A DNA stretch of 24,928 nt, taken from the IMG/VR virus record IMGVR_UViG_3300020205_000291, positions 1-24,928 of that record, one strand, 5' to 3'. Under the pieces are notes generated by a model. That model made no database searches. It was not told the origin of the DNA and worked only from the letters and a program-made list of their open reading frames with translations. This DNA comes from a virus. Shown here in pieces: positions 4,294-16,089 of the stretch. Each line of letters starts with the position of its first letter. Within the stretch, counting starts at the first letter, position 1. Both the position numbers and the translations under genes were made by a program.

Positions 4294-7200
4294 CTAGCGG
4301 GGGGTTGGGGACCAGGAGGACTGCATGCCGTAGGTGGCGTTAAAGGTGGCCTGGGCTTGGGAAGCCTTGTTTTCTTCAATCATCCTCGCAAGCTCTGGCT
4401 CTGATGCCAAGAACTCAGCCTTGATGAAAGGCTTGTAGTAGTTGATCTCCTTGTTGATACGGATGACCCGTTCGCTTTGAGTGGCCTTGCTGGCCTCCGG
4501 TGGCGGCAGCTGCCAATAGCTGGAACCAGGGGCCACCATGGCGCTCAAGCCCTGGTGCAGCGTCGATCCACGACCTGGTGGGATGAATTGGCTGGTGATC
4601 ACAGCCAACTTGTTGAGTTGGGTCTGGTTCATGCGGAAGTTTGGCAAGCCCAGCTCATTGGGTCCCCAGATCTGGAACGCTGTGCCGCGACCAGACAACC
4701 GACCCAGCTCGATGTCGACCGGGTCCCTGGAGCCTTCCTTGGTGGGGGTAAAGGCCAGGGGGCTCATGGCGTTGACGGCACCTTTGAGCCACGGCTGATC
4801 CTGTGGCAAGTAGTTGACGCCCCAGGCCTGCTCAACGGCGATTGGCTCACCGGTAAGGGGGTGCAGAATCGGTGGCAACTGGTCCGACAGGCCCGGGATC
4901 CTGCTGGCAAACCGTTGCGCTAGCTCATGGGCAAAGGCAAAGGGTTGTGGCAGCTCAGACTTTTCAATGGCCCGCTGGTACCCATCTGCCCCCTTGCGGG
5001 TGTTGTTGAAAATGGCCGGCATGAACCCAGCGAGACGTCGTTGCACGTAGCCGGAGAACGGATCAATCTGGCCCTCGGTCGGCACGAAGCTCTTGTCCTG
5101 CAGCTCGGAGATCAGGTTGAAGATCTCACCCATGGACTTGTACATGTCCTTGGTGAACTGGGCAAAGCCCACTTGCCGCGCTGTTTCAGCAACGGACAAG
5201 ACGAAGTTGGACGCCAGGATCTCCCGGGCCTCCTTCGGCAAGCTGTTGTTCAGGCTCATCTGCAAGCCGATCAACGAGAACACATTGGAGACGGTGTCCA
5301 GGGCCTGCAGATCCCACCACCGTGTCGTGTCACCAGTGGCCGGGTTCTTGAACCGGATGGAGTACGACTGGATGCCAAGGCGCTGCATCTTGGCCCGGGT
5401 CTGTGCGTTGTACGACCCAGGGCCACTGAACTCAACGAAACCGCTGGTGGCCAGCATGACCCCACCGACGAGCGTCATGTACGCGGTTGCGATCTCCCCA
5501 ATGGCCCGGCTCCGGGTGTTGCGGTCTTCGCTGAAGACGTCCCGGTAGAAGGTGTCGGCCAACAAAGCGCCGGCGCCTGTGGCCCGCATGGCGGCCTTGG
5601 TGATGTTGGCGGGGCTGGTTGGGAACGGGTTCAGGATGCCCAGCGCTGGCGTGTGGTTGATCGCGTCCTTGAACGCTTTGGGCATCCAACCAACGGCCTG
5701 GCCAATAGCCATGCCTCGCTGCGGCCAGATGCCTGGCTCCTCCTGCATCCAGGCCAAAGCCCGCTTGTTGATCTCAGCGGTGTCAGTGATGCCCTCTTCC
5801 TTGGCCTTGGCAATGCCGTACTCGTAGCTCCGGGGTTGGAACTGAACGTCGAGGGAGTCGGTGAAGTTGATCCAGTCCATCGCTGCTTTGGCGTGGATCC
5901 CGGTGAACGCACCGTTCTCGATCATCTGGTCGTTCAAGAACACGTTGACCCACTGGTTCTCGATGCGTTCGTCGGTGATCTTGCCGGCCTCGATCCGAGC
6001 CGCGTCACCAGTCAGGCCACGACCCTCGGCTTTCTCGAGCTCCAGGCCCATGATCCGGCTCCACTCGGCGCTAGGGCCGATGAGTGACGAGAAGAACGTG
6101 TCCAGCGAACCGGAGACCCGGCCAGAAACGCTCAGGGCTTTCCAGGCCTTGTGGGCAAACAGGGCCGGGATGTTCATGTTTTCGGGATCAATCCACCACG
6201 GGTTCTCCAGCGTGTTGGCCGGGTCATTGGTCTCCCCAAAGAGCGACGTCTGGCCGTCGCTTTGTCCCAGGTTCCGCTGGGCCAAGTCCATGGACGAGGC
6301 ACCCAGGTTGCCGAAGCTCTCGCCAGCCCGGAACGATTCCCCAACCAACCGCCAAGCGTTGGACCAGTTGGACACGTACCGGCCGTACATGCCCATGTTC
6401 AAGCCGGCCTGGCGCATGGCCCGGTACGCGGCCTTGTTGTCGCCTTTCAAAGTGGCGATGCCAGCTGCTCCGGTCTCAGCAATGGCCTGGTTGATGGGCA
6501 TCGTGACGGCCCTGTACGCAGAGCCGACGAGCATCTTGGTCCAGGTCTTGGGCGACCACAGCAACGCAGCCCGGTACACCTGCACAAACATCTCTTGGTT
6601 TAACCGACCGACGTCGATCTTGCCGACGATGCTGTTGAGCTTGGCCCGCATGCCGGGATTGCCGCGGCTAGAGATAGCAACCTGGGCGGCGATCTCGGTC
6701 ATTTCGGTGGCTTCGGGGCTCATGACCCCTTGCTCGATGTCGGACCTGATGTCGGGGTCGATTTTGCCCAGGATCGTGTTCATGGGGTTGGCGATCTCCC
6801 CCTCGATGTCGGTGCCCATGGATTCATTGGCCACCGGGACCTCGGGCTCCACTGCTGCCTGGGAGCCGACGACCCGGTTGGCGACATTGGTGTCGAAAAT
6901 GACGGTCTCTGGGGCGCCACCACCCAACTCAAAGTCCGGGCTGAACCGGATGCCGGAGTAACCCTGGCCGGTGGCCCAATCCCGAACGGCAGTCCTCTGG
7001 CCATCAGTCAGCGACAAGTTGCCGTCCACGCGCTCAAGGGCTCCAAGGTTCAGCTCCTGCACCAGGTCGGCAATGCGCTTGTCCATCGCCACCAGGTCCA
7101 GGATGCGCACGTCACTGGGCAGGTCACCAGCGGCAACGACGTCTCCGTACGCTGCTGCGCTCTGAGGGGACTCGGTGAAGTAAGCACCCGTGCCCAACAG

Positions 7201-10200
7201 GTTGCTGCGGAGATCGGTGTCCTTGAAGCCACCCTCAACGATGCCCTGGGCCGCGGCCTCCGTGGTGCCGTGATACATGGGGGTCCCGGATGGCACCTGC
7301 CGATGCGTCGGGTCGAAGTCGTACTTGATCTGCATCACGCTCAGCCGTTGGCCGTCCTTGCGGCTGGCCGTCATCAGGGCGGTGTCGAGACGGTGCTGGT
7401 CCTCAAGCCCGGACCACAACCGTTGCATCGACACAGCGCGATCGGCCTCGTCGACAGTGGACTGCCACTCGATCGCAGTCATGCCGTTCTGGGCGGCGAT
7501 GTGATCCCGGTGGATCAGGTTGGCGGCAAGAGCCACCAGGTCCTGCTGGGACTTGGGGTCACCACGTCGAGCAGCTTCGAGCCTGGTCACCGTTGACTCA
7601 ACGGCCCACCCATCAGTGTCCAGCTGGTCCATGGCGGCCTTGACGACCGCTGGCTGGCTGTAGCTCTCAATGCCGGTCTGCTGGGCCCTGCTGGTCAGCA
7701 TCTCGCCCAGGGCCCTGTTGCTGGCGATCAGGGTGTCTGGTGCGTTCGGCACGTACTGGGTGTTGCCGGACCTGCTGGTGATCCGACGCACGTCGCTGGC
7801 CCCCATCTGAGCAATCTCCTCGGGGGTCAAGTCCCCGGACTCCAGGGCCTGCAGGTTCTGGTCGATGCGTCGTGCGAACTCAGCGGGGTCCGGGGGATCA
7901 GCGGAGAACTGGATGCCGTCGTCAACGGCGCCAGCGCCACCACGGTCTTTCATTTGGCCCAGGGCCGCTTTTTCAAACACGTCGTCCCAGGTCTTGTACT
8001 TGCCGCGGGTCAGCAAGAAGTTGATGGATTGGTCGACCAACTCCTTGATCTTGGTGAATATGCCCCCGACTTTCTCGGGAAGCTGGAGCCCCCGGGCAAA
8101 CCCAGCAAACGCTTCAGCTGTGGCTTCTTTCAGGCCGATGGTGCCGTCACGGAACCTGGCAGCGTTTCTGGGGTTGCCGAGGCTTTCGGCGTTCAGGGCC
8201 GCCAATTCCCGGATGGCTTTCTCGCTGCGGGCCAAGACCCCTTGCTCCGCGGCCGTCAAGAACCACCGCTGGAGCCGGTGGAACGATTCGTGGTACGTGG
8301 TGCTGAGCATCTGGGTGAACGACTTCGTCACCCCGTACGCCGACATCGCCACGCGAATCTGGTCGTCGGCCATGTTTCCGCCGAACCGGGGGCCCGGTGC
8401 GTACAGGCCAGCCAGATCCACCTTCTGGCCGACCAGGCTCATGTCGCCATAAGCCTCGGCCTGGACTGGTCCGTAGACCTCTTCAATCCGCTTGACAACC
8501 TCGAAGTCGGTCACGCCGCTGATGTTGAACGCGATCCGGGCCAACTCATTTGCTTCCCGTTCGGTGATGCGGGAGACCCCGGTGTAGCCCTCACCAACGG
8601 TGCCACCGGAGCCGGTCTCGACGTTGCGCCAGCCCTCGAGATTGGGCAACTCGGCCGCAAAATCAGCCCCGCCAAAGCCTTGGTTGCGGACCTGGAGGGT
8701 GCCAGACGTCGCAGTCGAGCTGGCTGCCATCTCCTTGATGCTGGGCTTGACAACACGGGCCCCGTACGAAGCAACCTCAGCTGGGTCCAAGCCATTGGAC
8801 TCCAGCCAATCCCGGTACTTCTGGTGAGATTTAGATGGCTTGCCGGTCGCGTCACCAGCCAAGGTGTAGGCGACCCGGTCCAGGTCGGTCTCAAAGGTCA
8901 ACTCGAACCGCTTCTGGCCGTAGCTGTAGCGGGGCTTGAGACCTGCCAGTTCACGGGGCAAGGTCAGCGCAGCCGGGGGCTCGGCAGGAGCAGCGGGCAC
9001 GGAGTCGCCGAGGTAACGCTGCTCGCCCTGGACGTTGACGCCGCGGCGACTCAACCAGCCACGTAGCTCTGCAGCCAGTGAGGTGTTCCCAAACTCCTCA
9101 GCAAGGCCCAGGCGCTCCAGGGCCGCAGAGATGGCTTCGTTCTCGTCCTTGGTGCCGCCGGCCTTAGCCGCAGCCCGGTCCTTGGCCGTGAAGCCAGGGG
9201 TGATGGAGACAGCGGGTGCAACGGGCGCCACGTCGACCGGCTTGGCCTGGATCGGCACCGGGTTCCCAGCGTTCTCAGGGGCCTTGACTTCAGGCAGGGC
9301 CCTTAGGTCAATCTCTTTCTTGCCGGCAGGCAGACCGAAGTCCCCGGTGAACACGATGCCGTCGTAACCCTCCTGCTTGGCCACCCGCGCAACCTGGGCC
9401 ACGTTGGCGGTCGCAGGGAGCCCCAGGAACTGGCGGGCATCAGCCAGGTTCTCGGCCTCCAGAGGGTCGGTGTACCCGGTGGCCGGGGTTTCAGTTGTTG
9501 TTGCGGCTGCGGCCGGCTCCTCGATCTGTCGAACGATCGCTTCGTCCTGAAGCAACCGTGGCCCATTCATCTCCTCAGAAATCGCGTCCCTCAACCGCTG
9601 CAGGTTGAACTGCACCAGGTTCGCGGCTGCTTTGGTGCGACCTGCCCCTTCCGGCAACTGGGCCGCCAGTTCGTTCAAGATGTCACGGACCGGTCCTTCG
9701 TACGCGGTGACCCTGTTGAACACAGCCACGGCTTCAGCGGCCATCTTGCGAGCTGCTTGGCTGCCTTCGACGTTGATCGTGTTGCCGGCTGATTCCAGGT
9801 AGGGGGTGTTCTTGGCTTGGGATGCCGCGGCCAGGGCCCGCATCTCGACCGAGAGCTGCTTGTACGCCGCGGTTCTGATGTCGATCAAGGCCACCACGTT
9901 GCTGGTCTTCGTCCACTCCTCGAACCCAGGCAACACAGGACCTGCGTCGCCGCCCCCAGCGCCGGTGCTGGCGAATTTCGCCTCCTGCATCGCCTGAACG
10001 ATCTTCTCGGCCGACCACTTGCCAGCGATCGCTTGCTTGGCGACGTCACTGATGATTGCGTCGTCGATCCCTTCAGCAGAGCCCAGGGCCACGGCCTTTG
10101 ACGTAGGCAAGTCACCGGTGGCGGTCTTGTCAAAGAGCCATTGGGGGAGACGGCTGAGGGCCACACCCTCGGACGCCAGCTTCCCGTTCAGGTTCACGTT

Positions 10201-12543
10201 CTGGAGACGCAGGTCCTCGACGGACATGCCGGTGTCCCGGAAGATCTTGGCCGCATCAATCGCCGTGCCCTTGTCGTCCTTGATGTTCTGCAGGGCCCCG
10301 GTCATCCGGGCGTCTGCTGCTGTCGGTGCGTCGATGAACTGGACGTTGATGACAGGGAACCCGGAGCGGTTGGCCAGCTCCAGGCGGTTGTGGCCATTGA
10401 CCACATAGATCTGGCCAGGGGGCCCTAGCTCGCCCTGGGTGTCCCGCCAGACGCTGATGACACCGCCGTACCGGGGGTCGTAGACGTTCTCCTCAGCGAG
10501 CGATCCACTGCGACCGGTCGCTGTTTGGCCCTCCGCTTTGTATTGGAACACCTTGGGGGCCGCGACGACCGAGCCGGTCTCGATGGTTGCGACTTGCTCG
10601 TATGCCGGCTGGTTCATGCCCGGGAGCTGGCCCTGGGGCACTGCTGCAACCTCAGGTGCGGTCACCACCTCCTTGGCGGCTTCGGATTGCAGTCGTTGTG
10701 TCGCTACAACTAGCTCGGACTGGGCCTGTTGCAGTGCTGCTGCCGCTACCTCTGGCGTCGGTGGTGCGCTGGGGGCCGGGATGGTCCGTTGTGCGTCAGG
10801 GTCCGGCACCAGGCCAAGCTCGACGCCGGCGTCTTCCCGGGCCTTGCGACCGATCGACGTCAGCTGCCAGGACTTCAGGCGCTTGCCTTCGACGTCGACC
10901 CCTTTGGTGATCTCGTACCCGAGAGCCCGGTCGACGATGTCGGCCTGGACCTGGATGTTGGTCAGCGGGTTGCCAAGCACATACGGCTTGTTGCTTTTCG
11001 CTGGGTTGGCATCCATGTACAGCTGCTTGCCGATGTCCCACATGGACCACGACTGGCTTCCGGCATTGGGACCAAGCTCGATGCCAAGCTTTGCGGCTGC
11101 GTTGTTGAACGTGGCCCGGAGTTTCTGCGACGTCGCCTCGATGGCGATCTGATCCTGGCCAGCCAGGGCCTGTGCGTACCTCTTGCCACTGGCGTTCAGG
11201 GGGCCAGCAGCGGGATTGACGTCGCTGTAGTTCAGCTTGGCGGTGTACGAGTCAACCGGAAGCGGCTGTGGGGCCCGAGCCTGGGGCTCTAGACGTCCCT
11301 GGATCTGAACACCCGTCTGCTCCCACAGGGGTTGACGACGCAGGCCCTGGTACACCTGGGACGAGAACGCTGGCTTGCCAGACACGACACGTGGTGCTGG
11401 TGCAGCTGCAGCAGGGGCTGGAGTTCCCGCACTTGGGACACTCGGGTCAACAGTGGCCGCGGCCGGTGCTGTTGCTGCATCCTTTACGGATTGATCGGCC
11501 TGGCCGACCTTGATCACGTTCTGGATGACGTCGGCAAACGCCCGCTTCGTGGCACTTTGCATGGCACCAACGCCGCGGAACCCTGCCCGCTTGAGCGAGT
11601 TGAGACCAGCAGCGCCCGTGCCAATGCCGCCACCCAGGGGCACCGACCAGATCAGGTCGTCAATGGATTTCTTGATGCGGGCCTGCTCGACCGTGTCGTT
11701 CGGGTCGGTCAACAGACCCTTGGCCACGACACCCTCAAATGGTGTGCCCTTGACCACCGGCGCCAACCATGAGTCGCTCAACGTCTTGTCGGTGGGATCG
11801 GCGCCGTAATACGTGGCGATAGCGCCAGGCACAGCGCCTTCCACCGCTTCCTTGGCAAAGATGCCCCCAACCCTTTGAAGGCGACTGCCCCCCTCCAGTG
11901 CTGCAACCTTCTTGTCGAAGCCAGCGGCCAGCCGGGACACCCCGGGCAACATGCGAGTCATGTTCCCGACGCCTGATCCCTTGCCAAGGGCAAAGTACGG
12001 GACAAGGGCAATGATTTCGGCAGCGACGTCCTCGACCGGGTTCGCTGGTTCGACTCGTATGTCGTCGTAGTTGGCCCACTCGGGCAGCCGCACCCGTTGA
12101 GCACTAGGAGCGCCGGGTCCGGTGGATGGCAGCTTGACGTCCATGGGCGACGTGCCTGCAGCTATTTGCTCCCGGGCCAGCCGTGCTCGATCAATCTCGG
12201 TCCGGGCTATGTCCACTGACCGTTGAGCACCCGCTTGCGCAACCCGCGCCAAGGATTGGTTGACCCCTCGACCCAGATCTGTCGTCGGCGCAGCTTCCCT
12301 CGACGCGGCCGCAATGCTTTTGTTCAGGTCCCCGGTCTGGAGAAACGTGGACACCCCGGTGCCCAGGGCCCCGATCTGTTTCATGGGGTTGAAGTCGTTC
12401 AACGTGCCCATGAATCCACCGCCGGCCGGTGGTCGTGGCTGCGGCCTGGGCTTAGGCGGACCCCCTGTGCCCATCCCACCTGTCGACACATAGACCCGGC
12501 GCTTCTCCCCGGTCTTGGGGTCGACAATGATTTCGATGGGCAT
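4294..12543 (-). CDS. Giant internal virion / polyvalent protein at the gp16 position (ParB-like, metallopeptidase-like, ART-like domains)
   Basis: A 2,749-residue protein directly upstream of the tail fibre, the place of T7 gp16 (1,318 residues), the inner core protein ejected into the host. Domains in order: Gly/Pro-rich N-terminus and hydrophobic helices (~150-330); low-complexity Ala/Pro linker (~360-390); ParB/DdrB-like domain (~660-850) with VNGHNRLELA, GHNR at 717-720; a degenerate ART-like end (EGYDGIVF, ~1027-1090); a KPRYSYG...FELTFETDLDRVAYTL module (~1200); a metallopeptidase-like domain with HESFH at 1418-1422 and a second conserved segment EATAEAFAGF (Glu at 1473 and 1477); an ADP-ribosyltransferase-like domain with YHGT (His1758), GAYFTESP (Tyr1788) and PETVIFD (Glu1879); then a long helical C-terminal half (~1930-2749) of gp16-like type. 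This matches the polyvalent proteins of Iyer and Aravind. The domain calls rest on motifs; enzymatic activity is inferred. Confidence 0.85.
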   Translation of the reverse strand: MPIEIIVDPKTGEKRRVYVSTGGMGTGGPPKPRPQPRPPAGGGFMGTLNDFNPMKQIGALGTGVSTFLQTGDLNKSIAAASREAAPTTDLGRGVNQSLARVAQAGAQRSVDIARTEIDRARLAREQIAAGTSPMDVKLPSTGPGAPSAQRVRLPEWANYDDIRVEPANPVEDVAAEIIALVPYFALGKGSGVGNMTRMLPGVSRLAAGFDKKVAALEGGSRLQRVGGIFAKEAVEGAVPGAIATYYGADPTDKTLSDSWLAPVVKGTPFEGVVAKGLLTDPNDTVEQARIKKSIDDLIWSVPLGGGIGTGAAGLNSLKRAGFRGVGAMQSATKRAFADVIQNVIKVGQADQSVKDAATAPAAATVDPSVPSAGTPAPAAAAPAPRVVSGKPAFSSQVYQGLRRQPLWEQTGVQIQGRLEPQARAPQPLPVDSYTAKLNYSDVNPAAGPLNASGKRYAQALAGQDQIAIEATSQKLRATFNNAAAKLGIELGPNAGSQSWSMWDIGKQLYMDANPAKSNKPYVLGNPLTNIQVQADIVDRALGYEITKGVDVEGKRLKSWQLTSIGRKAREDAGVELGLVPDPDAQRTIPAPSAPPTPEVAAAALQQAQSELVVATQRLQSEAAKEVVTAPEVAAVPQGQLPGMNQPAYEQVATIETGSVVAAPKVFQYKAEGQTATGRSGSLAEENVYDPRYGGVISVWRDTQGELGPPGQIYVVNGHNRLELANRSGFPVINVQFIDAPTAADARMTGALQNIKDDKGTAIDAAKIFRDTGMSVEDLRLQNVNLNGKLASEGVALSRLPQWLFDKTATGDLPTSKAVALGSAEGIDDAIISDVAKQAIAGKWSAEKIVQAMQEAKFASTGAGGGDAGPVLPGFEEWTKTSNVVALIDIRTAAYKQLSVEMRALAAASQAKNTPYLESAGNTINVEGSQAARKMAAEAVAVFNRVTAYEGPVRDILNELAAQLPEGAGRTKAAANLVQFNLQRLRDAISEEMNGPRLLQDEAIVRQIEEPAAAATTTETPATGYTDPLEAENLADARQFLGLPATANVAQVARVAKQEGYDGIVFTGDFGLPAGKKEIDLRALPEVKAPENAGNPVPIQAKPVDVAPVAPAVSITPGFTAKDRAAAKAGGTKDENEAISAALERLGLAEEFGNTSLAAELRGWLSRRGVNVQGEQRYLGDSVPAAPAEPPAALTLPRELAGLKPRYSYGQKRFELTFETDLDRVAYTLAGDATGKPSKSHQKYRDWLESNGLDPAEVASYGARVVKPSIKEMAASSTATSGTLQVRNQGFGGADFAAELPNLEGWRNVETGSGGTVGEGYTGVSRITEREANELARIAFNISGVTDFEVVKRIEEVYGPVQAEAYGDMSLVGQKVDLAGLYAPGPRFGGNMADDQIRVAMSAYGVTKSFTQMLSTTYHESFHRLQRWFLTAAEQGVLARSEKAIRELAALNAESLGNPRNAARFRDGTIGLKEATAEAFAGFARGLQLPEKVGGIFTKIKELVDQSINFLLTRGKYKTWDDVFEKAALGQMKDRGGAGAVDDGIQFSADPPDPAEFARRIDQNLQALESGDLTPEEIAQMGASDVRRITSRSGNTQYVPNAPDTLIASNRALGEMLTSRAQQTGIESYSQPAVVKAAMDQLDTDGWAVESTVTRLEAARRGDPKSQQDLVALAANLIHRDHIAAQNGMTAIEWQSTVDEADRAVSMQRLWSGLEDQHRLDTALMTASRKDGQRLSVMQIKYDFDPTHRQVPSGTPMYHGTTEAAAQGIVEGGFKDTDLRSNLLGTGAYFTESPQSAAAYGDVVAAGDLPSDVRILDLVAMDKRIADLVQELNLGALERVDGNLSLTDGQRTAVRDWATGQGYSGIRFSPDFELGGGAPETVIFDTNVANRVVGSQAAVEPEVPVANESMGTDIEGEIANPMNTILGKIDPDIRSDIEQGVMSPEATEMTEIAAQVAISSRGNPGMRAKLNSIVGKIDVGRLNQEMFVQVYRAALLWSPKTWTKMLVGSAYRAVTMPINQAIAETGAAGIATLKGDNKAAYRAMRQAGLNMGMYGRYVSNWSNAWRLVGESFRAGESFGNLGASSMDLAQRNLGQSDGQTSLFGETNDPANTLENPWWIDPENMNIPALFAHKAWKALSVSGRVSGSLDTFFSSLIGPSAEWSRIMGLELEKAEGRGLTGDAARIEAGKITDERIENQWVNVFLNDQMIENGAFTGIHAKAAMDWINFTDSLDVQFQPRSYEYGIAKAKEEGITDTAEINKRALAWMQEEPGIWPQRGMAIGQAVGWMPKAFKDAINHTPALGILNPFPTSPANITKAAMRATGAGALLADTFYRDVFSEDRNTRSRAIGEIATAYMTLVGGVMLATSGFVEFSGPGSYNAQTRAKMQRLGIQSYSIRFKNPATGDTTRWWDLQALDTVSNVFSLIGLQMSLNNSLPKEAREILASNFVLSVAETARQVGFAQFTKDMYKSMGEIFNLISELQDKSFVPTEGQIDPFSGYVQRRLAGFMPAIFNNTRKGADGYQRAIEKSELPQPFAFAHELAQRFASRIPGLSDQLPPILHPLTGEPIAVEQAWGVNYLPQDQPWLKGAVNAMSPLAFTPTKEGSRDPVDIELGRLSGRGTAFQIWGPNELGLPNFRMNQTQLNKLAVITSQFIPPGRGSTLHQGLSAMVAPGSSYWQLPPPEASKATQSERVIRINKEINYYKPFIKAEFLASEPELARMIEENKASQAQATFNATYGMQSSWSPTPR

Positions 12544-12597: not shown

Positions 12598-15390
12598 TTA
12601 ACGAAGATATTTGCGAGCTTCCTTCTGCACTTTGTTGTCTTGGGCTTGGCTTCCGCCTGGCAACGACGGCCAGGTATTGCGCAGCAAACGATCTGCCTCG
12701 TCGTAACGACCGGCCTGTATTGCTGCCCAGGCTTTCTTGTTGTAAACGCGAATCCAGGCGGCCGATGCCTTGGCTGATCGGTTGTAATTGCTGTCCCGGG
12801 GGTCGATGCCGCCTGATGCCGCAATGGCTTCAGCAGCAAACGGCGGGAACGCTTGGAAATAGCCACGGCCAGGCGACCCTTCGGCGTTGGGGACGTTGCG
12901 GATCCTGGTCTCGATATAGGCCAGCCGCTTCATGTAGCCATCGACCCGGGCCTGGGGCGTAACAGTTGCCTTTGGCGGCTTTGGTTTTGCCGCTGGACTG
13001 GTATTGGACATCGACATGATGTCCGACCCTGCGCTGGCATAGGTCCTGGACGCAGTGCCCGGCTCAGCGGCAGCAGCCGGTGGCACCAGCAGGTTGCCCA
13101 GGGCCCCGCCGACAATCTGGACACCAGCCAGGGCTCCGTTTTGTTGAGGGGTCGTCCGACGTGCAGGTGTCGCCCTTGAGATCTCTTGGCCGTCCAGGGC
13201 CCGGATCTTCTGGCGCTCGTTTTCTGGCACTTCGATGCCAAGCAACCTGAATTGGTTGAGGATCACATCAGACGGCTTCTGTCCACCAGTGCCTGTTGTC
13301 AACGTCTTCAGCAGCGTCTTGAAGTTTTGACTGGGGTTGCCGTTGAGCAAAGACGTGACGTCGCGGTCCCAGGCCTCAAGTTTCATCAACGGACGGACCT
13401 TGGCTTGAGACCGCAGCTCGTTGGCTTCCCGGGGGGCAATGGTGCTGCGGGCCCAGTTGCCGGTGTTCTTTTGGATCAACTGGGTGGTGTCGTCGTACCT
13501 GGGGGGCTGGACGCCAGGTACCTCCTCACGACGCCGGAGCCCAAAGTTGTTGCTGGCCTGAACCTTGTTCATGGCCTCCGTCGGGTCCTTGCCATTCTCG
13601 ATGGCTTGGTACACAGCTTCCTCCAGCTTGCGAGTTGCTTGGCTCCGAGCGTTGTAAATGGATTGGGACTCAAAGTCGACAATCTTTTCGCGGCCGTAAG
13701 AGTTAGGGCTTGTTACGTACGCCTCAAACTCCTTGACTATGTCGTCAACGCGCTTGTTGATCTCCTTGCGGTAGGACTGCACTTGCCTGTCGCCCTGGGC
13801 GTCCAAGGTGGTCAGGATGCGAACGCCCTCTGCGCTGGAAAGCTGCTTGTTTTGCACAAGGATCTCCACTTCGGCCCTCAACGCGTTTCGCTTGGCTTCG
13901 CTGTCTCGGGTCTCGTCAAGTTTTCGGGCAATGGCAAAGGCTTTCTCGTCCTGGACTGGCTTGACGACCCTCGCGTCGTTGTTTTGCCGGTCTGCCTCGA
14001 TGGCTGACATCCGGGCATTTCGGACCTGGTAATCGGAGATTTGCGCAGCGGCCGCTTCCTCGCGTTCGTACCAAGCCGTGGATGCAGCTGGATCATCTAA
14101 CGTGCCGTCCTTCTTGGCGGCCGTCCGACGAAGGTCGTAGTCCTGCTGCTCCTGGATCCCAGCCATCTGGGCTTGCTGGGTGTTGTCCTGGATCTGGCTG
14201 GCGTTCAGCTTTGCTCTCAGTTGATCCCGAAACGCCAAACCACCCAACTTGTTGACAAGGCGCTGGGACTCGTTTGGGGTCCCGTCTGCCTTGACTCGCT
14301 GGTCGATGGGGCCATCGAACACCCCAAGCAAGGGCTTCAACAAAAGCGGTATAGAGATAGATCCACCGCGTTGTTTTACGGCTGCACGGGCCTGCATTGC
14401 CCACCCCTCTGGGTACGCAGCAATCTGCTCGGCCTGCTGCTCCGGAGGCAAGGATGAGGACCTGATTGCCTCTATGTCGGACTGGCTTCTGCTAGTCGCA
14501 AGGCGCTCGGCTTCGTCCGGCGCCATGCCGGCAAGAATGTTGGCGACGTACTCCTGGGCGCCGGACTGCCGGTTCCAGGCCATCTGCTCGGTCTGCCTTG
14601 CGACTTGGCCCGCGTTGAACTTCTTGCGTTGGATCTGGCGGGCCTGAAGCTGCGCTTGGATGATGATGCCTTGGTTTTTGGCGTAGCCCTGGTTCGACAT
14701 CTGCACCCCGCCAAACAGCAGATCGGACTCAAGCGCCAGGTACTGGGGGTCCTCGGACGACAGCGTGTTGCTGTCGTAGTCCTTGCCATCCGTTCCCTTG
14801 ATGACGGAGGTGTTGGCGATACGGTCCGGCAGGCTCAGGGCCGCGTTCTGGATTGCGTTCTGCTCAATGGAACGCTCGAGCCAGTACTTGCCAACCGAAG
14901 AGTTTTGCTTTTCCCGGAGCATGTCCAGCATCTGGGCTGCGCCTGGAGTGCCAAGGGCCTTGGCTTTCTCCAGGTTGGCGGCTAGGTCAGCGATGCCACG
15001 GGCTGGGCCATATTTGCTGGTCTGGCCAACGAAGGCCCCAGTGGCGGCCTCCACCTTCTTGTCCTGCTCCTGCTTGTTGGCGAGCCATGTCTCGCCGAAA
15101 CTCTGCAGGGTCGAGCTGAATCCCCCCAGAGCCTTGGACAGGTTCGCCAGATCTTGGCCAGGGTTCGGCAGGTCCGGCGGTGCAAAGAACTTGGGGGCCC
15201 CGCCCAGCGTCGGTGCGCCCACCCGCTGAAACGTATCGACCGGTGTCGCCCGTGGCTGTAACGACGGGGCATTGATCGAGCCTTGGGCCAGGGCCTCGCC
15301 AGACGCGTCGGTGGGGATACCACCCAGGAGCCGTGCGGCTGAGGTCCGGCCGACCTCACCGTAGGACTGGCCGGTAGATAGACGTGCCAT
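12598..15390 (-). CDS. Internal core protein, gp15 position, with C-terminal lysozyme-like domain
   Basis: A 930-residue virion core protein located between the gp14- and gp16-position genes, as T7 gp15 (747 residues) is. Residues 1-750 are mostly helical, Gln/Ala-rich and coiled-coil-prone, as expected for ejected core proteins. The last ~125 residues are different. YIETRI (Glu827), GRGYFQAF (~842-848) and RNTWPSLPGGSQ (Trp907) follow the order of the lambda R / GH104 lytic transglycosylase family, where the catalytic Glu lies in an AWSEG motif, GRYQ is in the middle and WASLPG is near the end. Inferred role: local peptidoglycan opening during DNA entry. In T7 that activity sits at the N-terminus of gp16, so the module has moved. 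An SLT-type call is possible but fits less well. The ATG has a good Shine-Dalgarno (AAGGGA) inside the end of the preceding gene. Confidence 0.82.
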   Translation of the reverse strand: MARLSTGQSYGEVGRTSAARLLGGIPTDASGEALAQGSINAPSLQPRATPVDTFQRVGAPTLGGAPKFFAPPDLPNPGQDLANLSKALGGFSSTLQSFGETWLANKQEQDKKVEAATGAFVGQTSKYGPARGIADLAANLEKAKALGTPGAAQMLDMLREKQNSSVGKYWLERSIEQNAIQNAALSLPDRIANTSVIKGTDGKDYDSNTLSSEDPQYLALESDLLFGGVQMSNQGYAKNQGIIIQAQLQARQIQRKKFNAGQVARQTEQMAWNRQSGAQEYVANILAGMAPDEAERLATSRSQSDIEAIRSSSLPPEQQAEQIAAYPEGWAMQARAAVKQRGGSISIPLLLKPLLGVFDGPIDQRVKADGTPNESQRLVNKLGGLAFRDQLRAKLNASQIQDNTQQAQMAGIQEQQDYDLRRTAAKKDGTLDDPAASTAWYEREEAAAAQISDYQVRNARMSAIEADRQNNDARVVKPVQDEKAFAIARKLDETRDSEAKRNALRAEVEILVQNKQLSSAEGVRILTTLDAQGDRQVQSYRKEINKRVDDIVKEFEAYVTSPNSYGREKIVDFESQSIYNARSQATRKLEEAVYQAIENGKDPTEAMNKVQASNNFGLRRREEVPGVQPPRYDDTTQLIQKNTGNWARSTIAPREANELRSQAKVRPLMKLEAWDRDVTSLLNGNPSQNFKTLLKTLTTGTGGQKPSDVILNQFRLLGIEVPENERQKIRALDGQEISRATPARRTTPQQNGALAGVQIVGGALGNLLVPPAAAAEPGTASRTYASAGSDIMSMSNTSPAAKPKPPKATVTPQARVDGYMKRLAYIETRIRNVPNAEGSPGRGYFQAFPPFAAEAIAASGGIDPRDSNYNRSAKASAAWIRVYNKKAWAAIQAGRYDEADRLLRNTWPSLPGGSQAQDNKVQKEARKYLR

Positions 15391-15393
15391 GGT

Positions 15394-16089
15394 TTATCCC
15401 TTCCAGGATTGTGGAGCGTTTTTGTAAGCGCCGAAGCCTGTTGTGACACCAGACACGACGGCACTGGCCCCCTGCAAGATGAATGGCAGCTTGCTCGGCT
15501 TCGACTGGTAAATGGGTTCCAACGGATCCAACACTGGTTGCTCGATGTACGGCTGCTGACTGGCGATCCGGGATCCACGTTCAGCTGCGACCCCTCGTTT
15601 CTGGAGTTGGATCTGGGTGCCAGTGAACGCCAAGTTCTGGCTGGTGGCGTAATCAAACTGCGCCTGTTGTCGGCGGAAATCCGCGACCAGGTTGTCGACA
15701 GTGTTGCCCAGGCGGCCGGACGCAATGATCTCGCCCCGGGCCTTGGTCCCCGCGATGGCGCCTTTCTGTGCCTCTTGGCTGGCCGCCGCCGTCTCCTGCA
15801 TCAACCTGGCGTTCAGGGCTCCGATGTCGTTGGCGTAAGCGTTGTCCGCCATCAAGCGATTGATGCGCATCAGCTCTTCCTGCTGATTGGCCCGCATCTG
15901 CTCAAAGTTCCGGGCAGAGCCGGCCTGCATCTGCTGAAACCGGAACCCTTGTGCCGCCTGGGCATTGGCGAACGACGCTTGTTCCTGGGCAGCCTTGGCG
16001 CCAGCCATCGCTTGACCGATGCCGAGGCCAGCACTGGCGACGCCGGAGCCAATGGCAAAAACAAGGGCTGGTGTTAGTGGTCCACACAT
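15394..16089 (-). CDS. Internal virion protein, T7 gp14-like
   Basis: A 231-residue protein (T7 gp14 is 196). It begins MCGPLTPALVFAIGSG with a Gly/Ala-rich hydrophobic segment (residues ~6-35), then a long Gln/Ala/Arg-rich amphipathic helical region, and near the end a second Ala/Gly-rich segment (LQGASAVVSGVTTGFGAY). T7 gp14 has the same layout and also starts Met-Cys with a hydrophobic segment. In T7, gp14 leaves the virion first and forms a channel across the outer membrane for the later core proteins. The gene lies between the gp13-like and gp15-position genes, 4 bases after the former. Assignment is by synteny plus architecture, as the family diverges strongly in sequence. Confidence 0.85.
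   Translation of the reverse strand: MCGPLTPALVFAIGSGVASAGLGIGQAMAGAKAAQEQASFANAQAAQGFRFQQMQAGSARNFEQMRANQQEELMRINRLMADNAYANDIGALNARLMQETAAASQEAQKGAIAGTKARGEIIASGRLGNTVDNLVADFRRQQAQFDYATSQNLAFTGTQIQLQKRGVAAERGSRIASQQPYIEQPVLDPLEPIYQSKPSKLPFILQGASAVVSGVTTGFGAYKNAPQSWKG

Follow-up and report, generated by a model that had tools for sequence, protein, structure and literature searches.

The window, meaning the whole stretch of DNA analyzed, comprises all 24,928 bases of an uncultivated-virus record in IMG/VR, which is complete and has a T7-like morphogenesis block on its minus strand. In order, the block encodes a head-tail connector, scaffold, capsid, gp11, gp12, a gp13-like protein, gp14, a protein of 930 amino acids (aa), a 2749-aa protein, and a T7-type tail fiber. 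The gp13-like protein matched Pfam Phage_T7_Gp13 at 3.3e-5, just under the cut-off, and gp12 was 62.9% identical to that of Prochlorococcus phage P-SCSP1, the nearest isolate by this protein. Three genes of the block concern us here:

15394 to 16089, minus strand: gp14-like internal virion protein (Pfam T7_gp14, 2.3e-11)
12598 to 15390, minus strand: putative gp15-position ejection protein of 930 aa with a C-terminal hydrolase-like domain (open reading frame and synteny)
4294 to 12543, minus strand: gp16-position protein of 2749 aa, in which no wall hydrolase was detected by Pfam or nine home-made hydrolase HMMs

By gene order and Pfam, the 930-aa protein (P0001) sits between gp14 and gp16, the gene position of T7 gp15. 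A tblastn search of 50,697 phage records gave no match at 1e-5 to gp15 of isolates such as T7. Since similarity to T7 gp15 itself is undetectable, it is synteny and size that support the gp15 assignment. Against gp15 of P-SCSP1, overall identity was 20% (MAFFT), and BLASTP against a small database gave 1e-9 across ∼225 N-terminal residues. Most likely, the virus is a podoviral relative of the P-SCSP1 (MPP-C) cyanophages and the protein its internal core (ejection) protein at the T7 gp15 position, which would as such be located in the virion.

Residues 794 to 930 of this protein are encoded by positions 12598 to 13010 (minus strand). In this part, the sequence-only reading had picked out YIETRI, GRGYFQAF, and RNTWPSLPGG as motifs in the order of phage lambda R. 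All three were present where it had placed them, YIETRI spanning residues 825 to 830 so that its numbering of Glu827 was also right, and the order is that of lambda R (LAWSEGT ... GAGRYQ ... IWASLPGAG). The alignment pairs Glu827 with lambda Glu19, GYFQ with GRYQ, and TWPSLP with IWASLP. Homologous domains were gathered to a set of sixteen and then of twenty-one (alignments A3 and A5, respectively), and the following features were delimited:

12601 to 12960, minus strand: R-type lysozyme/lytic-transglycosylase-like domain, residues 811 to 930 (HHalign to the lambda-R family, models, homologues)
12910 to 12912, minus strand: codon of Glu827, the predicted catalytic acid, aligned to lambda Glu19 and with the Glu of all lambda-R family members
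12847 to 12870, minus strand: GRGYFQAF motif, residues 841 to 848, aligned to lambda R GAGRYQ (GYFQ invariant in A5)
12652 to 12681, minus strand: RNTWPSLPGG motif, residues 904 to 913, aligned to lambda R NIWASLPGAG (TWPSLP invariant in A5)

When the domain family was aligned by HHalign with a seven-member lambda-R family, the probability was 94.8% (E 5e-8, score 50.9), and 94.5% with a smaller set. Of 100 column-shuffled versions of the family, none exceeded a score of 19.4, and the reversed profile reached 12.0. Scores against other profiles were 21.7 for SLT, 16.9 for M15, 14.8 for GH24, and 8.8 for DPBB, with SLT_3 also at or below 21.7; Pfam likewise gave no Phage_lysozyme (GH24) match in the window domain. 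An HMM of the lambda-R family alone, run over six-frame open reading frames of 48 records, found only window-type domains and two GH104-like domains, those of L049 and of Bordetella phage BB8, the latter being itself a member of the family from which the HMM was made. The listed top tblastn matches of the domain in phages were all lambda-R-type endolysins or unannotated copies, each below significance, and no relatives were found in bacterial and archaeal genomes. Searches of Pfam, NCBIfam, PHROG, and PDB sequences with the domain returned no match. Lambda R, searched as a control, also scored nothing in Pfam or NCBIfam, so the misses there are uninformative. A TPR match at residues 887 to 904 (E 0.2), which falls within the lambda-R-aligned part, was rejected as chance. 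As judged by profile comparison, the domain at residues ∼811 to 930 is a distant relative of phage lambda lysozyme R, as had been proposed for the C terminus of this gp15-position protein.

The two domains differ between the first and second motifs. The beta lobe of lambda R (YDVIVGG...HP, about residues 20 to 60), which occupies ∼40 residues after the catalytic Glu, is replaced by ∼11 residues in all members, and in the alignment the window domain has no counterpart of the lambda R QD motif. The relationship to lambda R given in the sequence-only reading stood, and its GH104 label did not: because no member has the beta lobe between Glu and GRYQ, the domain was not filed as GH104 and is, by alignment, a compact relative of lambda R rather than a canonical member of that family. 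The shortened distance from Glu827 to the Gln of GYFQ resembles that of SLT domains. The domain might accordingly be a true SLT/GH23-type transglycosylase with a likeness to lambda R at its C-terminal end only, acquired by convergence; its E-x(n)-GxxQ spacing comes near the one in T7 gp16 and other SLT domains, and the SLT profile weakly aligned domain residues 11 to 46 (score 21.7, probability 5%). However, the lambda R profile scored far higher and covered the C-terminal half, and Pfam gave no significant SLT match: P0001, P0015, P0016, L033, L022, and L024 had none, and L043 alone had SLT_4 at E 0.079. Convergence from an SLT ancestor is thus quite unlikely.

Two AlphaFold models of the domain were compared with known structures. 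For both the first (pLDDT 77.6) and the second (pLDDT 73.4), the best match was lambda lysozyme 3d3d_A, with Z 5.7 over 110 aligned residues and Z 5.3 over 102, respectively, values that are modest in being below 8. The next matches of the first model were 8kea (cyanophage A-1(L) baseplate), 4qdn (glucosaminidase), and 1am7 (lambda lysozyme), followed by bromodomains at 3.6 or less. The aligned structural ranges began 6-on-3 and 7-on-4, so that their starts are offset by 3 in both models, which was counted as evidence for pairing Glu827 with lambda Glu19. Foldseek with the domain models found nothing at E below 1 in PDB and no significant match in BFVD, and the bromodomains in its lists were rejected as generic helical matches. 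The deeper alignment used for the second model did not raise confidence, and the stretch around the second motif was among the least confident parts of both. Fold prediction against lambda R, which the sequence-only reading had proposed as a check, gave lambda lysozyme as the top match of each model, at modest Z and with nothing significant from Foldseek. A lysozyme fold is modestly supported by the agreement of sequence and structure, and by neither alone.

Glu827, whose conservation had been anticipated, was invariant in 21/21 sequences and is one of 45 invariant columns. Neither of the outcomes that the sequence-only reading had named as refuting it, lack of a lysozyme fold or a Glu827 that is unconserved and outside the cleft, was observed. 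For the same gene pairs, omega was 0.08 to 0.19 in the domain versus 0.34 to 0.42 in the body, so purifying selection acts far more strongly on the domain than on the remainder of the protein. The domain is also found in other settings. In L024 to L030, it ends a gp15-position protein of 1033 to 1055 aa in which no resemblance to the window protein could be detected outside the domain, and in L175 to L179 it is embedded in long proteins. That of L175 is a tape-measure protein (TMP_3, 9.6e-34), and that of L178 is probably another, as suggested by gene context and C-terminal sequence. In both, a Peptidase_M23 endopeptidase is followed by the R-type domain (residues 1205 to 1451 in L175 and 1019 to 1278 in L178). 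The domain is therefore a module occurring in otherwise dissimilar proteins. During infection, tape-measure proteins pass into the envelope, as do ejection proteins. Muralytic domains are known on both, a tape-measure example being T5 pb2 (PMC5380687). As a separate observation, the L024 protein (6244 to 9342) has a HYDGRTFDI segment just before its C-terminal R-type domain, which by eye resembles M15-like peptidase motifs and had no Pfam match.

These data also bear on whether the motifs arose by chance or composition, the C terminus being an ordinary linker or structural tail. The lack of a significant match in any curated library would fit such an origin, which is contradicted by the shuffles and reversed profiles, by the low omega, and by the independence of the module; it is hardly credible.

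At the C terminus of gp15 in relatives, at least five other hydrolase types were found (lambda-R/GH104-like, SLT_3, SLT, RlpA/DPBB, and M15), distributed as follows:

L004, L005, L041, and L049: GH104-like, at the same end of gp15-body homologues
L037: DPBB_1/RlpA type (Pfam 8.6e-10)
L051: Peptidase_M15_3 (Pfam 3.4e-6)
L052: SLT (3e-4, marginally under the Pfam cut-off)
P-SCSP1 and the near-identical L053: SLT_3 (Pfam 1.1e-13 in P-SCSP1)

The exchange could be followed at the DNA level. L021, which has the window type, and L004, which has the GH104-like type, are 83.5% identical up to residue ∼772; the domain is unmatched, and the match resumes at 86.4%, 28 bases past the gp15 stop. L017 compared with L037 (DPBB) gave the same two junctions. 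In the window, these correspond to

13065 to 13152, minus strand: left junction, conserved PQQNxALxGxQI...PPA (residues ∼747 to 775) and then a variable Pro/Ala linker; DNA similarity stops at residue ∼772 in L021 and L017
12539 to 12570, minus strand: right junction, conserved CAAACTGATCCCATCGCTAACTGACCCATGCC across the gp15-gp16 spacer and the gp16 start, single copy in the window

The 32-base sequence of the right junction is near-identical in L002, L004, L011, L017, L021, L037, and L041, whatever hydrolase precedes it, and may be either a translation signal or a recombination anchor. In a tree of gp15 bodies, L004 was placed beside L021, nested and with strong support. The R-type label required 5 switches on the best tree, 2 of them forced by well-supported branches, counts that are approximate because L049, L051, and L052 have long branches. 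The exchanges demonstrated between close relatives are those with the GH104-like and DPBB types, since L051, L052, and P-SCSP1 have bodies that have diverged much further. The gp15 C terminus is thus an exchange slot, in which the cassette is swapped for unrelated hydrolases among close relatives.

The presence of recognized enzymes at this slot is relevant to function. As the domain lacks the lambda R beta lobe, catalysis is not assured, and the lysozyme-derived domain could have ceased to be an enzyme and instead bind glycan strands or give structure or anchorage to the ejection tube. Deletion of the lobe, loss of the QD motif, and the low model confidence around the second motif would all be compatible with this. 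However, Glu827 is invariant across different protein backbones, recognized catalytic families replace the domain one for one at the same slot, and in tape-measure-type proteins the domain adjoins an M23 endopeptidase, all of which make a purely binding or structural role unlikely.

Several known systems resemble the window protein in part. The lambda R endolysin (GH104, PDB 3d3d/1am7) shares the catalytic Glu after the first helix, GxxQ, and a C-terminal half ending in W-x-S-L-P, in addition to the profile match and the modest fold match; it is a free endolysin, whereas the window domain forms the C terminus of a putative internal virion protein and lacks the beta lobe and QD motif. T7 also has an entry muralytic domain on an ejection protein, but this is the N-terminal SLT transglycosylase of gp16, on the opposite side of the gp15/gp16 boundary. 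Closer in position are phiKMV gp36, SP6 gp36, and K1-5 (K1E gp35), in which a lysozyme is found on the gp15-position ejection protein, C-terminally in phiKMV and in a K1E-like phage. The phiKMV gp36 gene is at the same position (Pfam Phage_lysozyme, 3.7e-6), and gp36C is an active lysozyme, with the SP6 gp36 and K1-5 domains described alongside it (PMC5380687). An entry role has been reported for virion lysozymes of the phiKMV/SP6/K1-5 type (PMC5380687, PMC8954989). In phiKMV and the K1E-like phage UKE2, however, the domain is a T4-type Phage_lysozyme (GH24), not a lambda R relative. PhiM1, a Pectobacterium phage, has a lysozyme-like domain on the octameric ejection protein (OEP) of its ejectosome, in this case with a solved structure (PMC11440229). 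P-SCSP1 has a wall-enzyme domain at the same C terminus, which differs in being SLT_3, on a protein annotated as hypothetical in its record.

A lysozyme at the C terminus of the gp15-position protein is therefore established in phiKMV, SP6/K1-5, and PhiM1, and its relocation there is not new. A 2022 review had noted both that K1E/K1-5 gp35 carries a lysozyme and that the gp15 homologue can receive the hydrolase domain of gp16 in a swap (PMC8954989). The accompanying idea of a move from the T7 arrangement to the present one fits less well than an exchange slot occupied by different hydrolases in close relatives. In Bordetella phage BB8 (L010, 8001 to 8420), for example, a GH104-like domain is found at the gp16 N terminus, which is the T7 position without being the T7 family, and which lies just across the same gp15/gp16 gene boundary. 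In fifteen isolates (fourteen T7-like phages and P-SCSP1), within the stretches and profiles tested, a recognized hydrolase was found on one of the gp15- and gp16-position proteins or on neither, never on both. Fri1 and F23s2 were put into the GH24 profile by inspection, with no Pfam hit of their own, and are not independent evidence. What is new here is the site as an exchange slot; neither a compact lambda-R-related domain at the gp15 position, nor its sharing with tape-measure proteins, nor cassette exchange between close relatives was found in the open-access PMC papers searched.

Taken together, the window very probably encodes a gp15-position ejection protein with a compact, lambda-R-related entry muralytic domain centered on Glu827, in an exchangeable slot, the activity being predicted from sequence. 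Such a protein would be carried inside the capsid and, on infection, be ejected into the periplasm, where the domain would use Glu827 as general acid to cut the MurNAc-GlcNAc glycan and make a local gap in the wall to admit the ejection tube. The chemistry would most likely be that of a lytic transglycosylase, as in lambda R, rather than of a hydrolase. Through recombination between the linker past residue ∼772 and the gp15-gp16 spacer, an unrelated wall hydrolase would take the place of the entire enzyme.

In the P-SCSP1-related cyanophage group, for whose putative internal virion proteins no function had been named (PMC9860041), a wall-cutting enzyme, with putative activity, is thereby placed on an ejection protein that lacked annotation. 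The domain family is absent from Pfam, PHROGs, and NCBIfam at the thresholds used. The relatives form a natural series of virion proteins differing mainly in the hydrolase, with which it can be asked whether the entry enzyme limits host range. A wider interpretation, which we consider possible but doubtful, is a dedicated host-adaptation slot for whole wall-cutting enzymes (glycosidase, transglycosylase, RlpA-type, peptidase) that match the host peptidoglycan. Conserved flanks on both sides would permit the trade, hydrolase type would be linked to host wall chemistry, and the compact R-type domain would form a novel subfamily intermediate between lambda R and the SLT enzymes, moving between podovirus ejection proteins and the tape-measure proteins of long-tailed phages.

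The gp16-position protein (P0002; 4294 to 12543, minus strand) is 36% identical to its P-SCSP1 counterpart. The claim that it had gained other domains found slight backing in one PHROG segment, one sub-threshold PARP hit, and one motif. The two segments lie at residues 601 to 821 and 1753 to 1801: one matched phrog_21 ("portal protein") at 2.5e-34 and looks ParB-like, and the other is PARP-like (Pfam 0.021, YHGT...GTGAYF). The motif, HESFH, is zincin-like. All three are possibly injected effector domains. Similar segments were also present in the P-SCSP1 protein.
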